A stretch of DNA of 64,000 nucleotides from Lentilactobacillus diolivorans DSM 14421 (GTDB lineage Bacteria > Bacillota > Bacilli > Lactobacillales > Lactobacillaceae), in NCBI RefSeq assembly GCF_001434255.1, contig NZ_AZEY01000079.1, forward strand, positions 112,292 to 176,291. Direction: 5' to 3'. Below the pieces are notes generated by a model that saw nothing but the letters and a program-made list of their open reading frames with translations, made no database searches and was not told the DNA's origin. This document shows, one piece after another, positions 28,748 to 38,711 of the stretch; position 1 is the first letter of the stretch; every line of letters starts with the position of its first letter. The position numbers and the translations under genes were made by a program.

Positions 28748-29065
28748 AAAAAAGCATTCGTCCCCACACATCAGAAATAATCTGACGGAGGGGCGAATGC
28801 TTCGCTGTACCACCCTGAATTCGTATTACTCTCGCAAGCAATACCTCTGAAAGTGCCAATTATTCCAAATTCTCATAATTGATACCCTGTGAGTTAACGG
28901 TCACAGCCGACAACCAAGCGTTAACTTAATTGCACTATTCAGAGTTCATATTCGCTGATTGTTAAGATATCCTTTTTCACCAACCGGATTCTCTTTGAAT
29001 CTTGTTAAATCAGTTACTCTTCTCTTCAGAGCTTTTCCCTAATCGGATTAGCATTAAAATTTGAT
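28748..29065 (-). ncRNA. T-box riboswitch (Met specifier) upstream of luxS
   Basis: Read on the minus strand, the leader has Stem I with the AGTA bulge (AGAGTAAC), a GGTTGGTGAAA apical part and a specifier loop GAATATGAAC with ATG at 28947-28949. It also has the T-box AGGGTGGTACAGCG (28803-28816) and a terminator AAGCATTCGCCCC..GGGGACGAATGC followed by T6 (28748-28802). The Met reading fits luxS and metEF; TAT (Tyr) in the same loop is the alternative. Confidence 0.85.
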
Positions 29066-33957: not shown

Positions 33958-34503
33958 CTATTTAGACTGCTGATTGAAGGTGACATTGATAATTTTGGGA
34001 ACTGCTTTATTAATGATTTTGGCAGGATTTCCCACTGCGGTTGCATTCGCCGGAACGTCTGACAACACGACCGCACCAGCGCCGATCCTGCTGGCCTCAC
34101 CGACAGTAATGGTACCTAGAAGTTGGGCATTTGCACCAATAAAAGCACCACGTTTGATGTGGGGATGCCGGCGGCCGTTAACCGGTCGTCGAGCGCCAAG
34201 GGTCACGCCGTGTAAAATCGTGACGTCGTCTTCAATGACCGCTGTGGCACCAATAACGACGCCAATACCATGATCGATAAAGACTCGTTTGCCAATTTTG
34301 GCTTCCGGTGCAATTGCAATTCCGGTTCGCCGGGTACTGAATTGGCTGATCAAACTTGCCAAGGTGTAATGATGTCGGTCAGCTAAAAAGTGGGCAATTC
34401 GATACCAGAACAGGGCGTGGATACCAGGATATGTCAATAGAATTTCGATTAGACTATGGGCTGCCGGATCACGCTTCAGAATGGACCGTGCTGTTTGAAA
34501 CAT
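33958..34503 (-). CDS. cysE: Serine O-acetyltransferase
   Basis: The 181-aa left-handed beta-helix acetyltransferase has DPAAHSLIEILLTYPGIHALFWYRIAHFL, FIDHGIGVVIGATAVIEDDV with the catalytic Asp-His, LHGVTLGARR and RHPHIKRGAFIGANAQLLG. It makes O-acetylserine for CysK. The start at 34503 follows AAGGGAG; the frame extends upstream to 34536 without an SD. The gene overlaps the end of the cystathionine lyase gene by 35 nt, so it is translated from the same cysK-cgl-cysE mRNA. The N-terminal helical domain is shorter than in enteric CysE, as is usual in Firmicutes. Confidence 0.92.
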   Translation of the reverse strand: MFQTARSILKRDPAAHSLIEILLTYPGIHALFWYRIAHFLADRHHYTLASLISQFSTRRTGIAIAPEAKIGKRVFIDHGIGVVIGATAVIEDDVTILHGVTLGARRPVNGRRHPHIKRGAFIGANAQLLGTITVGEASRIGAGAVVLSDVPANATAVGNPAKIINKAVPKIINVTFNQQSK

Positions 34504-35653
34504 TATTTTTGCTCCCTTGCAGGTTCTGGAATCCACGTTCCAAATCGGTTAATAAATCTTTTTGATCTTCAACGCCAACTGAAAGGCGAATTAACTCGTC
34601 CTGAATGCCATTTTTTAAACGGATATCGCGAGGAATTGAGCCGTGGGTCATTAATGCTGGAATCTCAATGAGACTTTCAAGAGCCCCAAGGCTTTCCGCT
34701 AATGTGATGACCTGGAGTTCTTCGACGAAGGCTTTGGGATCGAGTCCTGGTTGTAATTCAAATGAGATCATAGCACCAAACCCATTCATTTGTTTTCTGG
34801 CAACGTCATAATCCGGATTCTCCGGATCACCTGGGAAGTAAATTTTACTGACCAGCGGTTGATTGGCTAAGTAGTGAAAGATGGCTTCGGCATTTGCTAA
34901 ATGGGCTCGCATTCGTAGTGAGAGGGTCTTCATCCCTCGTTGAAGCAGCCAACTTTCTTGAGGGGCCAAGATACCACCGATGGCGTTTTGCAAATAGCCA
35001 ACTTTTTCGGCTAATTCAGCATCTTTTGTTACGACTAAACCGGCGATGACATCGCTATGGCCTCCCAAGTACTTGGATGCACTGTGTAAAACAATGTCGA
35101 CACCAAATTCAAGGGGCCGTTGGACATAGGGAGAAGCAAAGGTGTTATCAATGATACTGAGGATGTTGTGCGCTTTAGCAATGTCCGCAACCGCTTTGAT
35201 ATCTGTGACCCGCAGCAGTGGATTGGTTGGCGTCTCCAAATAAATAGCTTTGGTTGCTGGTGTAATGGCTGCTTCAACTGCATTGAGATCACGGGTATCA
35301 ACAACTGTAAATGTCATGCCAAATCGTTTTAAGACGGCATCAATCAGACGGAAAGTACCACCATAGACGTCGTTGCCAACCACAAAATGATCGCCGGCAG
35401 AGAACAGGGAAAAAACGGTGTCGATAGCAGCTGATCCAGAAGCGAAGGCAAATCCGGCCACGCCGCCTTCAAGATCGGCAATTAATTTTTCAACAGCTTC
35501 ACGGGTGGGGTTACCAGAACGTGAATATTCATACTTGTTTTGACCAATTTTTTGTTGGTGAAAGGTTGATGCCATGTAAATCGGGATTGAAGTGGCTCCG
35601 GTTACTTTGTCTTCACTAATGCCACCGTGTAATAATTTAGTATCAAATTCCAT
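34469..35653 (-). CDS. Cystathionine gamma-lyase/gamma-synthase type PLP enzyme
   Basis: The 394-aa Cys/Met-metabolism PLP enzyme has FDTKLLHGG, SIPIYMASTFHQ, YEYSRSGNPTREAVE, FASGSAAID, YGGTFRLID, LETPTNPLLRVTDI, DNTFASPYVQRPLEFG, the PLP Lys in SASKYLGGHSD, and MTHGSIP. Sequence alone does not separate cystathionine gamma-lyase, gamma-synthase and homocysteine gamma-lyase. Its place between cysK and cysE, under an apparent cysteine attenuator, favours cysteine formation by reverse transsulfuration (CGL). It lies 71 bp downstream of cysK. Confidence 0.88.
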   Translation of the reverse strand: MEFDTKLLHGGISEDKVTGATSIPIYMASTFHQQKIGQNKYEYSRSGNPTREAVEKLIADLEGGVAGFAFASGSAAIDTVFSLFSAGDHFVVGNDVYGGTFRLIDAVLKRFGMTFTVVDTRDLNAVEAAITPATKAIYLETPTNPLLRVTDIKAVADIAKAHNILSIIDNTFASPYVQRPLEFGVDIVLHSASKYLGGHSDVIAGLVVTKDAELAEKVGYLQNAIGGILAPQESWLLQRGMKTLSLRMRAHLANAEAIFHYLANQPLVSKIYFPGDPENPDYDVARKQMNGFGAMISFELQPGLDPKAFVEELQVITLAESLGALESLIEIPALMTHGSIPRDIRLKNGIQDELIRLSVGVEDQKDLLTDLERGFQNLQGSKNNVSNSTVHSEA

Positions 35654-35724: not shown

Positions 35725-36666
35725 CTAACGGGAAACCATTTCTGTAGATTGTTCGTTCGGACTATAAATGTGCTCACTCATGTAACGCTCGCTACTATCG
35801 GGAAAAACTGTCACAATGGTACTGTTCTCAGGCAATTCTTTCGCGATCTTTAAGCTGGCTGCTAAAGCCGCACCACTGGAACTGCCGATAAATAGACCCT
35901 GGTTTTCAGCCATTTGACGAACTTGTTTGAAAGCATCGTCATCTGAAATCGTTAATGTTTGGTCAATTTCGACGTTTTTAAAAAATGGTGGTACAAATTC
36001 GACGCCAATGCCTTCTGTCCGATGTGAATGGGCGGGACCACCATTTAGGATTGATCCCTCTGGTTCAACAACAATTGTTTGCGTCTGTGAATGATGTTCC
36101 TTAAGATACTTTGCAATGCCGGCAAATGTGCCACCGCTACCGGCACCAGCAACAAAGGCATCGATTGGTCTGTCAAGATCTGCAAGCAACTCTGGTGCCA
36201 ATGTGTGATAGTAGGTGGCTGGATTGGCGGGGTTCTCAAATTGCATTGGGACAAAACTGTTTGGCGTATTCGCTTCAACTTCACGAGCTTTTTTAATGGC
36301 GCCTTTAATTCCTTCGGCGGATGGTGTGTTGATTAATTGGGCACCGAGCGCCTTCATCAGGGTTTGTTTCTCGTAACTAAATTTCTCTGGAACGACTAAA
36401 ATAGTTTTTAAATGATACTGCTGGGCTGCTAGCGCAACACCGATCCCGGTATTACCAGCGGTTGGTTCAATAATGGTCGTTTGATCATTAATTTTGCCGC
36501 GGTTAAAACCATCTTGGATTAAATACTGGCCAAGCCGATCTTTAATGCTACCGCCGGGATTAAACATCTCAAGCTTGGCATAAATATGGCTATGGTTGGG
36601 AACGTTAATTTGTAAGTCGATTAACGGTGTATCACCAATTAATTGTGAGACAGATTTGATTATCAT
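35725..36666 (-). CDS. cysK: Cysteine synthase or cystathionine beta-synthase-like enzyme
   Basis: The 313-aa fold-II PLP enzyme has [25 protein letters not shown] with the PLP Lys, [43 protein letters not shown] and [10 protein letters not shown]. It joins a sulfur donor to O-acetylserine, or serine to homocysteine when acting as CBS. Linkage to cgl suggests the latter is possible (MccA-like). The start at 36666 follows AGAGGA; eight more codons upstream lack an SD. It is the first gene of the operon; promoter, leader peptide and terminator lie within 36708-36945. Confidence 0.9.
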
Positions 36667-36707
36667 GATTTTTTTCCTCTCTTTGGTCATTGCTAAATTT
36701 TAGATAG

Positions 36708-36747
36708 AAAAAGGGCGCGAAAATTCGTAATGAATTCTCGCGCCCTT
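36708..36747 (-). terminator. Attenuator terminator before cysK
   Basis: On the minus strand AAGGGCGCGAGAATTC pairs with GAATTTTCGCGCCCTT around ATTAC, followed by T5. Its 5' arm CCAAGGGCGCG (36739-36749) can instead pair over 11 bp (with G-U pairs) with CGCGTTTTTGG (36831-36841) inside the leader ORF, giving an antiterminator. Confidence 0.85.
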
Positions 36748-36812
36748 GGTCAATTCAAGCCCTGAATGGGCATTGAATTTTTTAGGTCGTTATCCCTTAA
36801 AAAATGTCAATG

Positions 36813-36887
36813 CTAACAGGCCGAACATCGCCAAAAACGCGTTGTTCGACAACAGCTATTGATTGCATTAGACATAAAATAGGTCAT
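36813..36887 (-). CDS. Cysteine-rich leader peptide of the cysK operon
   Basis: This 24-codon ORF starts MTYFMSNAIN and holds Cys codons at 12, 13, 21 and 24 (SCC, WRCSAC), the last sense codon being Cys. GGAGG lies 8 nt before the ATG, and a TTGACA-N17-TATAGT promoter starts the transcript about 20 nt upstream. Downstream come a hairpin (AATTCAATGCCC with GGGCTTGAATT) and the terminator before cysK. By analogy with amino-acid biosynthetic leaders, stalling at Cys12-Cys13 when Cys-tRNA is scarce would free CGCGTTTTTGG for antitermination. Nothing suggests a role for the peptide itself. Confidence 0.8.
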   Translation of the reverse strand: MTYFMSNAINSCCRTTRFWRCSAC

Positions 36888-36916
36888 AAACGACACCTCC
36901 GTAATTTGTTGTCCAA

Positions 36917-36945
36917 ACTATACTCAACATTTTTTAATTTGTCAA
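36917..36945 (-). promoter_or_regulatory. Promoter of the cysK operon leader
   Basis: On the minus strand, -35 TTGACA (36940-36945), a 17-nt spacer and -10 TATAGT (36917-36922). Confidence 0.85.
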
Positions 36946-37078: not shown

Positions 37079-37084
37079 AAAATT

Positions 37085-37318
37085 ATATTAAATAAAGATG
37101 AGTAGCTGTTTTTCCTATTTCAGAGAAGCATTGGGTGGCTGAAAGATGCAATGGGGAATTTAGCGAATATGGTCTTTATGGATAATTAATAAAAATAATC
37201 ATTAACTTCGCGAGCTGCGCGTTATCACACAATGAGTGGGTGCAAATGCATTCAGTAAGGTGGTACCACGGCAACGTCGTCCTTTATCAAACTGTAAATA
37301 GTTTGATAAGGGACTTTT
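37085..37318 (+). ncRNA. T-box riboswitch (probable Met specifier) before an FAD oxidase
   Basis: Stem I begins GATGAGTAGCTG with AGTA and has the GGGTGGCTGAAAGATG apical segment. The specifier loop is GAATATGGTC, with ATG at 37169-37171, the same form as in the luxS leader. The T-box AAGGTGGTACCACGG spans 37257-37271. The terminator CCTTTATCAAACT..AGTTTGATAAGG ends in T5 (37279-37319). TAT (Tyr) is the alternative specifier reading. Confidence 0.85.
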
Positions 37319-37343: not shown

Positions 37344-38711
37344 ATGGCAACAGTTATTGACGAATTAACAATTCCAGATGGTCGGATTATTACCGACGCA
37401 CAAGAGGTTCAAAAATTTAGTGGCGATAAATACACTGAAGCAATTGAGGCTGTCAATCAGCCGTTGGCAGTTGTTGAAGCTCAAAGCACTGCCGATGTTC
37501 AAGCAGCTGTCAGGTTTGCTAACGCGCATCGAATTCCAGTGACTGCGCGGGCTGCAGCAACTTCAATTGTGAATGGGTCAGCAGCTGAAAAAGATGGATT
37601 GATTATTGACTTGAATCAGCTGAATAAAATTTTGGAAATCAATATTCCTAATCAATATGCCGTGGTTCAAGCAGGCGTAATTAATTCTGATTTGGATAAT
37701 GAAGCTCGAAAACAAGGGTATTTCTTTTCACCTGATCCTGGTTCAAAGCCAATTAGTTCAGTTGGCGGCAATATCGCGACTAACGCTGGTGGCATGAGTT
37801 CACTAAAGTACGGCACGACAAAACAGTCAGTAATTGGTTTGAAAGTTGTTTTGGCTGATGGCACGGTCGTTGAGACAGGTGGTAAAACATTCAAGAACAA
37901 CGCGCCATATGATTTAACCGACTTGTTTGTCGGTTCAGAGGGAACGCTGGGGATTATTGTCGAAGCGACTGTTAAATTACTGCCAGTTCCATTTGGCAAT
38001 CCCGTAACCGGCCTTGCAACGTTTGCCAACATGAAGCAGCTAAGTGTAGGGGTTCAGAATATTTCCGGAAGTGGTTTGTATCCTTCAATGATGGAGGCCC
38101 TTAATAAGACTTCGATTGAAGCATTGGATCGTTTGGAACATTCAGATCTTGGTCAGGGCGGAGCTGAATCGCTATTGATTTTCCAACTGGATGTTGCACC
38201 GGCCGGGGCTTTGGATGCGCTTAAAAAGATCTTAAAGAGTTCAGGGGCGTTAAGAGTTAATGTTACTGATGATCCTGATTATGCTAAGAAAATCATCAAA
38301 ATTCGTCAAGACTACTATCAAGCCGAAGCAGCATACGGGCGATTAATTGTTGAAGACGTAGCTGTGCCACTCTCAAAATTACCTGATTTAGCAGAGTTCG
38401 TTGAAAATCTAAAGTTTTCATCCAACGTGACGGCGTTTTTGGGTGGTCATGCAGGTGATGGTAATTTTCACCCAAACTTTGCGGTGTCAAAGGAGTTGGA
38501 CCAGACGCCTGATGATGTTAATGACGCGATTAATCAAATCTTTAAATATGTTCAATCAATTGGCGGGACAATTTCCGCGGAACATGGTATTGGCGATTTG
38601 AAAGAGAAGTGGGTATTACCACAGTTGGGTCAGAACTTGGTGGCTTTACAGAAGAAAGTTAAATTGACGTTTGATCCCAATAACGTGCTGAACCCCGATC
38701 GAAAATTATAA
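37344..38711 (+). CDS. FAD-linked 2-hydroxyacid oxidase/dehydrogenase (GlcD/D-lactate dehydrogenase type)
   Basis: The 455-aa protein has an N-terminal FAD-binding PCMH domain (residues about 35-215; VTARAAATSIVNGSA, SVGGNIATNAGGMSSLKYG, GSEGTLGIIVEATVKL) and a C-terminal FAD-oxidase domain (HAGDGNFHPNFAV, SAEHGIGDLKEKW). Such enzymes oxidise D-2-hydroxyacids to 2-oxoacids. The T-box upstream links it to amino acid shortage. With a Met specifier, a D-2-hydroxy-4-methylthiobutanoate dehydrogenase feeding methionine salvage is an attractive inference. SD AAAGGACGAG precedes the ATG. It is a single gene. Confidence 0.85.
   Translation: MATVIDELTIPDGRIITDAQEVQKFSGDKYTEAIEAVNQPLAVVEAQSTADVQAAVRFANAHRIPVTARAAATSIVNGSAAEKDGLIIDLNQLNKILEINIPNQYAVVQAGVINSDLDNEARKQGYFFSPDPGSKPISSVGGNIATNAGGMSSLKYGTTKQSVIGLKVVLADGTVVETGGKTFKNNAPYDLTDLFVGSEGTLGIIVEATVKLLPVPFGNPVTGLATFANMKQLSVGVQNISGSGLYPSMMEALNKTSIEALDRLEHSDLGQGGAESLLIFQLDVAPAGALDALKKILKSSGALRVNVTDDPDYAKKIIKIRQDYYQAEAAYGRLIVEDVAVPLSKLPDLAEFVENLKFSSNVTAFLGGHAGDGNFHPNFAVSKELDQTPDDVNDAINQIFKYVQSIGGTISAEHGIGDLKEKWVLPQLGQNLVALQKKVKLTFDPNNVLNPDRKL

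Follow-up and report, generated by a model that had tools for sequence, protein, structure and literature searches.

A probable cysteine-codon leader-peptide attenuator ahead of the cysK-cgl-cysE operon of Lentilactobacillus diolivorans and other Lactobacillales

Classical amino-acid attenuators are those of the trp, his and ilv type of proteobacteria. For cysteine, the polycysteine ORFs of mycobacteria are said, going by the title of a 2020 work by Canestrari, to be leaderless and cysteine-responsive. PMC1262725 predicts cysteine leader ORFs for mycobacteria, Propionibacterium acnes and Bifidobacterium longum; for the mycobacterial polycysteine leaders it describes no conserved terminator hairpin and suggests Rho. 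The uORFC-8-2 motif precedes cysS in Rhodobacterales (PMC8632094). Among Firmicutes, leader-peptide attenuation was mutant-tested for the Listeria rli60 ilv-leu system (PMC5864092) and predicted for histidine leader peptides ahead of hisS and hisZ in bacilli (PMC2965389), and cysteine-specific T-boxes were reported in Clostridium perfringens and ahead of a transporter operon of strain FAM18149 (PMC6004538). No cysteine leader-peptide attenuator in Lactobacillales was recognised in searches of open-licence literature.

The cysteine leader described here lies on the minus strand of a 64,000-nucleotide stretch of Lentilactobacillus diolivorans DSM 14421 (the window), between 36945 and 36708, and its features are listed in the table. 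An earlier note made from the sequence had pointed to a TTGACA-N17-TATAGT promoter, an SD GGAGG, a 24-codon ORF with four Cys codons, a hairpin and an intrinsic terminator ahead of cysK, and an 11-bp pairing between a segment of the ORF and the 5' arm of the terminator. All of these were found as claimed, including the three G-U pairs of the helix. The terminator stem followed by U's was computed at −26.7 kcal/mol, and the fold of the whole leader was far more stable than that of dinucleotide shuffles (z = −6.9; 0 of 200 shuffles as good). The antiterminator 5' segment doubles as part of a conserved protector hairpin that begins right behind the Cys-Cys codons in the window, a role absent from the earlier note. 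The stretch of the intervening hairpin pairs otherwise in the whole-leader fold and is absent from the consensus fold; this hairpin might possibly serve as a pause or spacer element.

Predicted elements of the cysteine leader and genes of the operon in the window (arms and motifs are given in the direction of transcription).
Feature	Coordinates	Strand	Details and basis
Promoter, TTGACA, 17 nt, TATAGT	36917..36945	-	TTGACA 36945-36940, TATAGT 36922-36917; sequence
Shine-Dalgarno GGAGG of the leader ORF	36896..36900	-	sequence
Leader peptide ORF MTYFMSNAINSCCRTTRFWRCSAC, 24 codons + stop	36813..36887	-	Cys at 12, 13, 21, 24
Putative regulatory Cys codons 12-13 of the leader ORF	36854-36849	-	
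Predicted protector hairpin within the ORF, CGAACAACGC / GCGATGTTCG	36822..36848	-	arms 36848-36839 with 36831-36822; covariation and consensus fold
Predicted antiterminator 5' segment CGCGTTTTTGG	36831..36841	-	36841-36831 pairs with 36749-36739; 13 nt past the first Cys12 base
Predicted antiterminator 3' segment CCAAGGGCGCG	36739..36749	-	overlaps terminator 5' arm
Intervening hairpin after the stop codon	36771..36812	-	minimum-energy fold from the Cys codons onward
Intrinsic terminator, 16-bp stem + U-tract	36708..36747	-	stem 36747-36732 with 36726-36711; covariation
cysK-like gene (cysteine synthase / cystathionine beta-synthase family)	35725..36666	-	NCBIfam cysK and cysta_beta, both below cut-offs
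cgl-like gene (cystathionine gamma-lyase/synthase family)	34469..35653	-	NCBIfam matches below cut-offs
cysE/epsC (serine O-acetyltransferase)	33958..34536	-	NF041874 above cut-off

Like the classical attenuators, this leader has an ORF with regulatory codons, and a protector, an antiterminator and an intrinsic terminator that are mutually exclusive. It differs from them in that it would sense cysteine, occurs in Lactobacillales, carries the antiterminator segment inside the ORF directly behind the Cys run and, in the window, has about 65 nt between the stop codon and the terminator. With uORFC-8-2, as described in PMC8632094, it shares a short ORF with two tandem Cys codons (there usually 14-15), a first stem that holds the Cys codons and a terminator-like 3' end; that motif belongs to alphaproteobacteria and a cysteinyl-tRNA synthetase gene, and the likeness lies in the layout. 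An Rfam search gave no uORFC-8-2 match on the leader, a family that Rfam may not include. A Cys-codon ORF ahead of cysteine genes is also common to the mycobacterial polycysteine leaders (PMC1262725). The SD with a Cys-run ORF, and the intrinsic terminator before the first structural gene, are those of an attenuator and place the present leader outside the mycobacterial leaderless type. The rli60 and hisS/hisZ systems likewise represent leader-peptide attenuation in Firmicutes and differ in reading branched-chain or histidine codons ahead of other operons (PMC5864092, PMC2965389).

Taken together, the evidence makes it very probable that the leader is a ribosome-mediated transcription attenuator, sensing charged Cys-tRNA and thereby controlling the methionine-to-cysteine operon cysK-cgl-cysE. 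The anatomy, the conservation, the covariation of the helices and their spacing come from the present analysis; the cysteine response and the excess of 5'-UTR reads were published for the homologous operon of FAM18149. RNA polymerase would start at the promoter, with a ribosome translating the leader ORF behind it. When Cys-tRNA is sufficient, the ribosome would pass Cys12-Cys13 and leave at the stop codon, whereupon the protector hairpin would occupy the antiterminator segment, the terminator would form and transcription would end near 36708. When Cys-tRNA is scarce, the ribosome would stall with Cys12 (or Cys13) in the A site and cover the 5' arm of the protector, leaving CGCGTTTTTGG, just past its front edge, free to pair with CCAAGGGCGCG; no terminator would then form and the operon would be transcribed. 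The cysteine attenuator proposed in the earlier note is thus supported by the conserved ORF, Cys codons and pairings and by the published FAM18149 response; we infer that the leader ORF is translated, that ribosomes stall at Cys12-Cys13 and that tRNA charging is what is sensed, and likewise the order in which the helices fold.

The start of cysK is most likely at 36666, where the relatives align, rather than at 36690, the in-frame ATG given by the mechanical ORF list. In the leader upstream, no Rfam family, T-box included, reached its gathering score. The single match with E below 1 was to a Pseudomonas sRNA (15 bits against a threshold of 44 bits), an identity that was set aside as a chance match. 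A T-box leader scoring above the cut-off, with 94.5 bits, was found at 37079-37287 on the plus strand; it stands back to back with the cysteine leader and precedes a divergent glcD-like FAD oxidase gene (37344-38711). A further T-box match lies at 28786-29038 on the minus strand (contig positions 141077-141329; 77.8 bits, below the cut-off). Over the genome, 54 T-box matches were obtained at E up to 0.001, 16 of them over the curated cut-off, indicating that T-box control is available to this organism, yet none was found at the cysK operon. Cysteine T-boxes, in the general T-box scheme, resemble the present leader in responding to the state of Cys-tRNA and acting by premature termination; they differ in binding tRNA directly, with no translation. 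Control of the operon by a T-box or a metabolite riboswitch, for which the T-box-rich genome and the cysteine-specific T-boxes preceding such genes in C. perfringens (PMC6004538) might speak, retains almost no probability given the Rfam result at the leader and the position of the neighbouring T-box on the other strand, reading away.

For the conservation analysis, an alignment of CysK relatives was scanned against genomes and the best 80 of 582 loci were kept. A leader was called when an ORF of 8-70 codons with an SD word and Cys-Cys was present within 450 nt upstream of cysK. By this rule, in which leader ORFs are chosen by Cys-Cys and SD word, a leader was found in 44 of 45 Lactobacillales loci and in 0 of 35 non-Lactobacillales loci among those best 80 of 582; only 36 of 900 dinucleotide-shuffled Lactobacillales upstream regions (4%) satisfied it. 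The sole miss in the order (L099) is cut by the contig end and retains just 112 nt upstream. The label Lactobacillales and the family names were assigned from the record titles and general taxonomic usage. Judged likewise by their titles, the 35 other loci are mostly from Bacillales, with one from Helicobacter (L070, Helicobacter sp. NHP21005), whose CysK is 56% identical to that of the window, unexpected for the phylum, and before which no leader was found. Leader-bearing genera include Lentilactobacillus, Secundilactobacillus, Lactiplantibacillus, Ligilactobacillus, Leuconostoc, Oenococcus, Limosilactobacillus, Liquorilactobacillus, Companilactobacillus, Enterococcus, Alkalibacterium, Marinilactibacillus and Floricoccus.

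Sixteen more leaders (L004-L018 and L020), which partly duplicate the 44 leader loci, came from a second set of 30 relatives' loci, in which only matches with an extracted locus were considered; L003 corresponds to the window, a contig end truncates L021, and L022-L032 (39-47% identity) were left out. In L019, from the same order and with a CysK 60% identical, the sole Cys ORF found has 10 codons and lacks an SD word, which fails the rule. The window, the 44 and the 16 together give 61 leaders. A hairpin before a U-tract was found by a scripted detector in 60 of the 61, L066 being a leader ORF without a detected terminator. Between the terminator and cysK, the two Secundilactobacillus loci L034 and L035 carry more than 200 nt with a large predicted hairpin. 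Strong SD words were present in 58 of 61 leaders, the SD word being itself part of the ORF selection. The best −35/−10 score within 80 nt upstream of the ORF was 10-11 of 12 in 43 of 58 leaders (3 of the 61 were skipped for too short an upstream sequence), compared with about 4% in mononucleotide shuffles.

The residues before Cys-Cys differ almost wholly among lineages, as in MAQRTVLVADCCC, MKNLYTKQACCC and MLLINIQTKNSCCC, and both cysteine codons are used (in 60 leaders, first position TGT 47 and TGC 13, second position TGT 37 and TGC 23). The divergent peptides and synonymous Cys codons fit selection on the meaning of the codons and not on the peptide. A nascent-peptide arrest in which cysteine or some other small molecule acts as co-factor would keep the RNA switch as described and replace Cys-tRNA charging as the signal. 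A stalled ribosome is needed either way, and the C-terminal part of the peptide, CRTTRFWRCSAC, is conserved within one group. This part is, however, the one that builds the protector and the antiterminator, and the almost complete divergence before Cys-Cys is a poor fit to a sequence sensed in the tunnel, so this kind of arrest appears unlikely. That the peptide is a functional small protein, binding metal or thiols next to a separate terminator, is very unlikely: some peptides are very Cys-rich, with up to eight Cys (L066), but it is the Cys run and the RNA helices following it that persist from lineage to lineage, with the ORF tied to covarying RNA pairs.

Pairing was counted in alignments of 40 of the 61 leaders (19 + 14 + 7), from which eight near-duplicates and L016, L018, L046, L058, L060, L062, L066, L068, L069, L079, L086, L097 and L106 were excluded; all of those omitted, save L066, were kept in the terminator detection and the masked folding. 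In 19 leaders aligned with MAFFT (the group of the window plus Leuconostoc), the antiterminator helix, drawn by hand after inspection of the sequences as were all counted helices, was paired in 84.7% of cells, with two-sided changes in 6 of 11 pairs (16 cells). Its covariation score was 0.351, against 0.261 ± 0.024 in shuffles that do not preserve relatedness (0 of 500 as high), and slid versions of the helix scored at most 0.158. For protector plus terminator in the same leaders, the score was 0.349 versus 0.217 in shuffles (0/500), and 13 of 26 pairs were changed on both sides. Similar values were obtained in the second group of 14, both for the antiterminator (0.318 versus 0.229, 0/500 shuffles; slid versions at most 0.162; two-sided change in 5 pairs, 10 cells) and for protector plus terminator (0.289 versus 0.202, 0/500). 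Of the five covariation measures, two failed to reach extreme values in some runs. The count of two-sided pairs was reached by 44/500 (19 leaders) and 60/500 (14 leaders) shuffles for the antiterminator and by 84/500 for protector plus terminator (14 leaders); the number of pair types was reached by 398, 147 and 467 of 500. An antiterminator exclusive with the terminator is thereby supported by covariation in the group of the window and in the second group. Aligning relatives upstream of cysK, put forward as a check in the earlier note, bore out its expectation, as ORF, Cys codons and both pairings were conserved with compensatory changes.

Since the shuffles are blind to kinship and the helices were drawn by hand, an alignment-free swap test was added. 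RNAduplex was used to pair the ORF segment of each of 29 representatives of 60 leaders (ORF segments less than 85% alike) with the terminator arms of all 29, its own included. The own pairings summed to −626 kcal/mol, compared with −416 ± 20 kcal/mol when permuted (0 of 20,000 as low). The own segment ranked first of 29 in 15 representatives and fifth or better in 22; the remaining seven (L018, L020, L056, L061, L077, L081 and L102) failed the test. These data also bear on the palindrome being a protein-binding operator or plain terminator to which the ORF is incidental, a reading that can draw on Liu et al. 2012 as cited in PMC6004538. The sequence of the palindrome varies widely while its complementarity to the ORF segment is kept, and 44 of the 45 Lactobacillales loci among the best 80 of 582 relatives have the leader ORF, which leaves this reading hardly plausible. 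The protein-binding palindrome, the T-box and the functional peptide were accordingly considered and set aside on the above evidence.

The position of the antiterminator relative to the Cys codons agrees with a stalled ribosome as the switch. A ribosome with its A site on a codon covers roughly 12-13 nt beyond it. In 17 of the 29 representatives, the best helix between segment and terminator starts 12-17 nt past the first Cys base (13 in the window); 11 of these 17 start at 13-14 nt, and two (L081 and L020) are weak, with 5-7 bp. Given the footprint, the antiterminator begins about at the front edge of the stalled ribosome. In this geometry, the 5' arm of the protector would lie under the stalled ribosome, and the Cys codons appear placed to free the antiterminator. 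When the stretch of the ribosome was masked in the window RNA ending before the terminator 3' arm, 17 pairs between segment and terminator were formed, compared with 0 in the unmasked RNA. In equilibrium folding of 60 leaders, the antiterminator was formed in 57 masked and 43 unmasked, so the two states were not generally separated; as a general proof, masked equilibrium folding, clean for the window and non-discriminating over the 60 leaders, was dropped. From the 43 unmasked leaders with the antiterminator, we infer that the OFF state must depend on the kinetics or sequence of folding, with the protector forming ahead of the antiterminator.

Two branches depart from this arrangement. In the Carnobacteriaceae type (L060, L068 and L106, also L016 and L097), the antiterminator starts 26-27 nt past the first Cys base in L060, L068 and L106, and a CATGC/GCATG core is common to the antiterminator and the terminator arm. 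By its sequence, this type looks like a shifted design of the same switch. The Enterococcus/Floricoccus type comprises L020, L061, L077, L081, L082, L085 and L102, and its leaders retain the Cys run, the protector and the terminator; TTTGTC is invariant in them, as is CTGATT within the terminator. An enterococcal antiterminator helix drawn by eye gave 91.8% pairing, yet its covariation was not above shuffles and the candidate was rejected; covariation support for an antiterminator was not found in the Enterococcus/Floricoccus branch.

A covariance model (R1) was built from the 19 leaders and is biased to their own group. It matched in 36 of 201 Lactobacillaceae genomes, a count of model matches and not of operon occurrence. 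Among 34 R1-matched loci, a set that leaves out 12 + 12 matches without a locus (the second 12 weak), 22 have a Cys-Cys leader, and all 22 lie before a cysK relative, so this leader group looks dedicated to one operon. Of the rest, L176 is the window's own element matched on its antisense strand, and 11 have neither, at 34.4 bits or less. In a plasmid search, 32 Lacticaseibacillus records matched, none over more than 80% of the query. The leader ORF was present in all three Lacticaseibacillus plasmids examined (L143, L144 and L145), where the leader is directly attached to cysK-ctl-cysE with transposases of the IS30, IS3 or IS5 family nearby. The control element thus seems to move with the operon on plasmids.

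Published data on L. paracasei FAM18149 concern such an operon. Its plasmid pFAM18149.25 carries the leader MSQSMFNAINCCCRTTRFWRCSAC and a palindrome, AAGGGCGCGAAA-N16-TTTCGCGCCCTT, that is the terminator motif quoted in PMC6004538. According to that article, cysK2 changed by log2 −3.1 in Met-deficient versus Cys-deficient medium, expression of the operon being higher when cysteine is lacking; the contrast published is between these two media. The operon is described there as having high 5'-UTR read coverage, no T-box and a terminator, with the caveat, given for T-box leaders, that RNase III fragmentation may enrich structured 5'-UTRs (PMC6004538). Besides proposing premature termination, its authors bring in an antisense RNA located at the 3' end, and they state that the mechanism 'is yet to be discovered'; in the text available, the string 'attenuat' never occurs (PMC6004538). 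The Cys-codon leader would supply the missing cysteine sensor of this operon, and offers a candidate answer to a question open in print, namely how L. paracasei senses cysteine at its cysK2-ctl1-cysE2 operon.

Judged from the loci compared here, the cysteine attenuator is probably order-wide in Lactobacillales. With somewhat less assurance than for the switch itself, we consider it likely that control of the methionine-to-cysteine operon by the leader attenuator is ancestral in this order and order-wide, the attenuator being carried on plasmids with the operon and repeatedly rewired. The rewiring would comprise register shifts, a displacement of the Carnobacteriaceae antiterminator by about 12 nt downstream and, in enterococci, a switch that is different or weaker. 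If the ancestral reading is true, an attenuator takes the place that CymR or T-boxes have in other Firmicutes, in bacteria that may themselves be T-box-rich. Cysteine would join the short list of amino acids that leader peptides are known to sense in Firmicutes, and a T-box-rich genome would use the ribosome for its cysK operon. The wide conservation makes the leader a good system for how attenuators evolve, and a defined, testable switch would become available on sulfur-flavour pathways for cheese and probiotic research.
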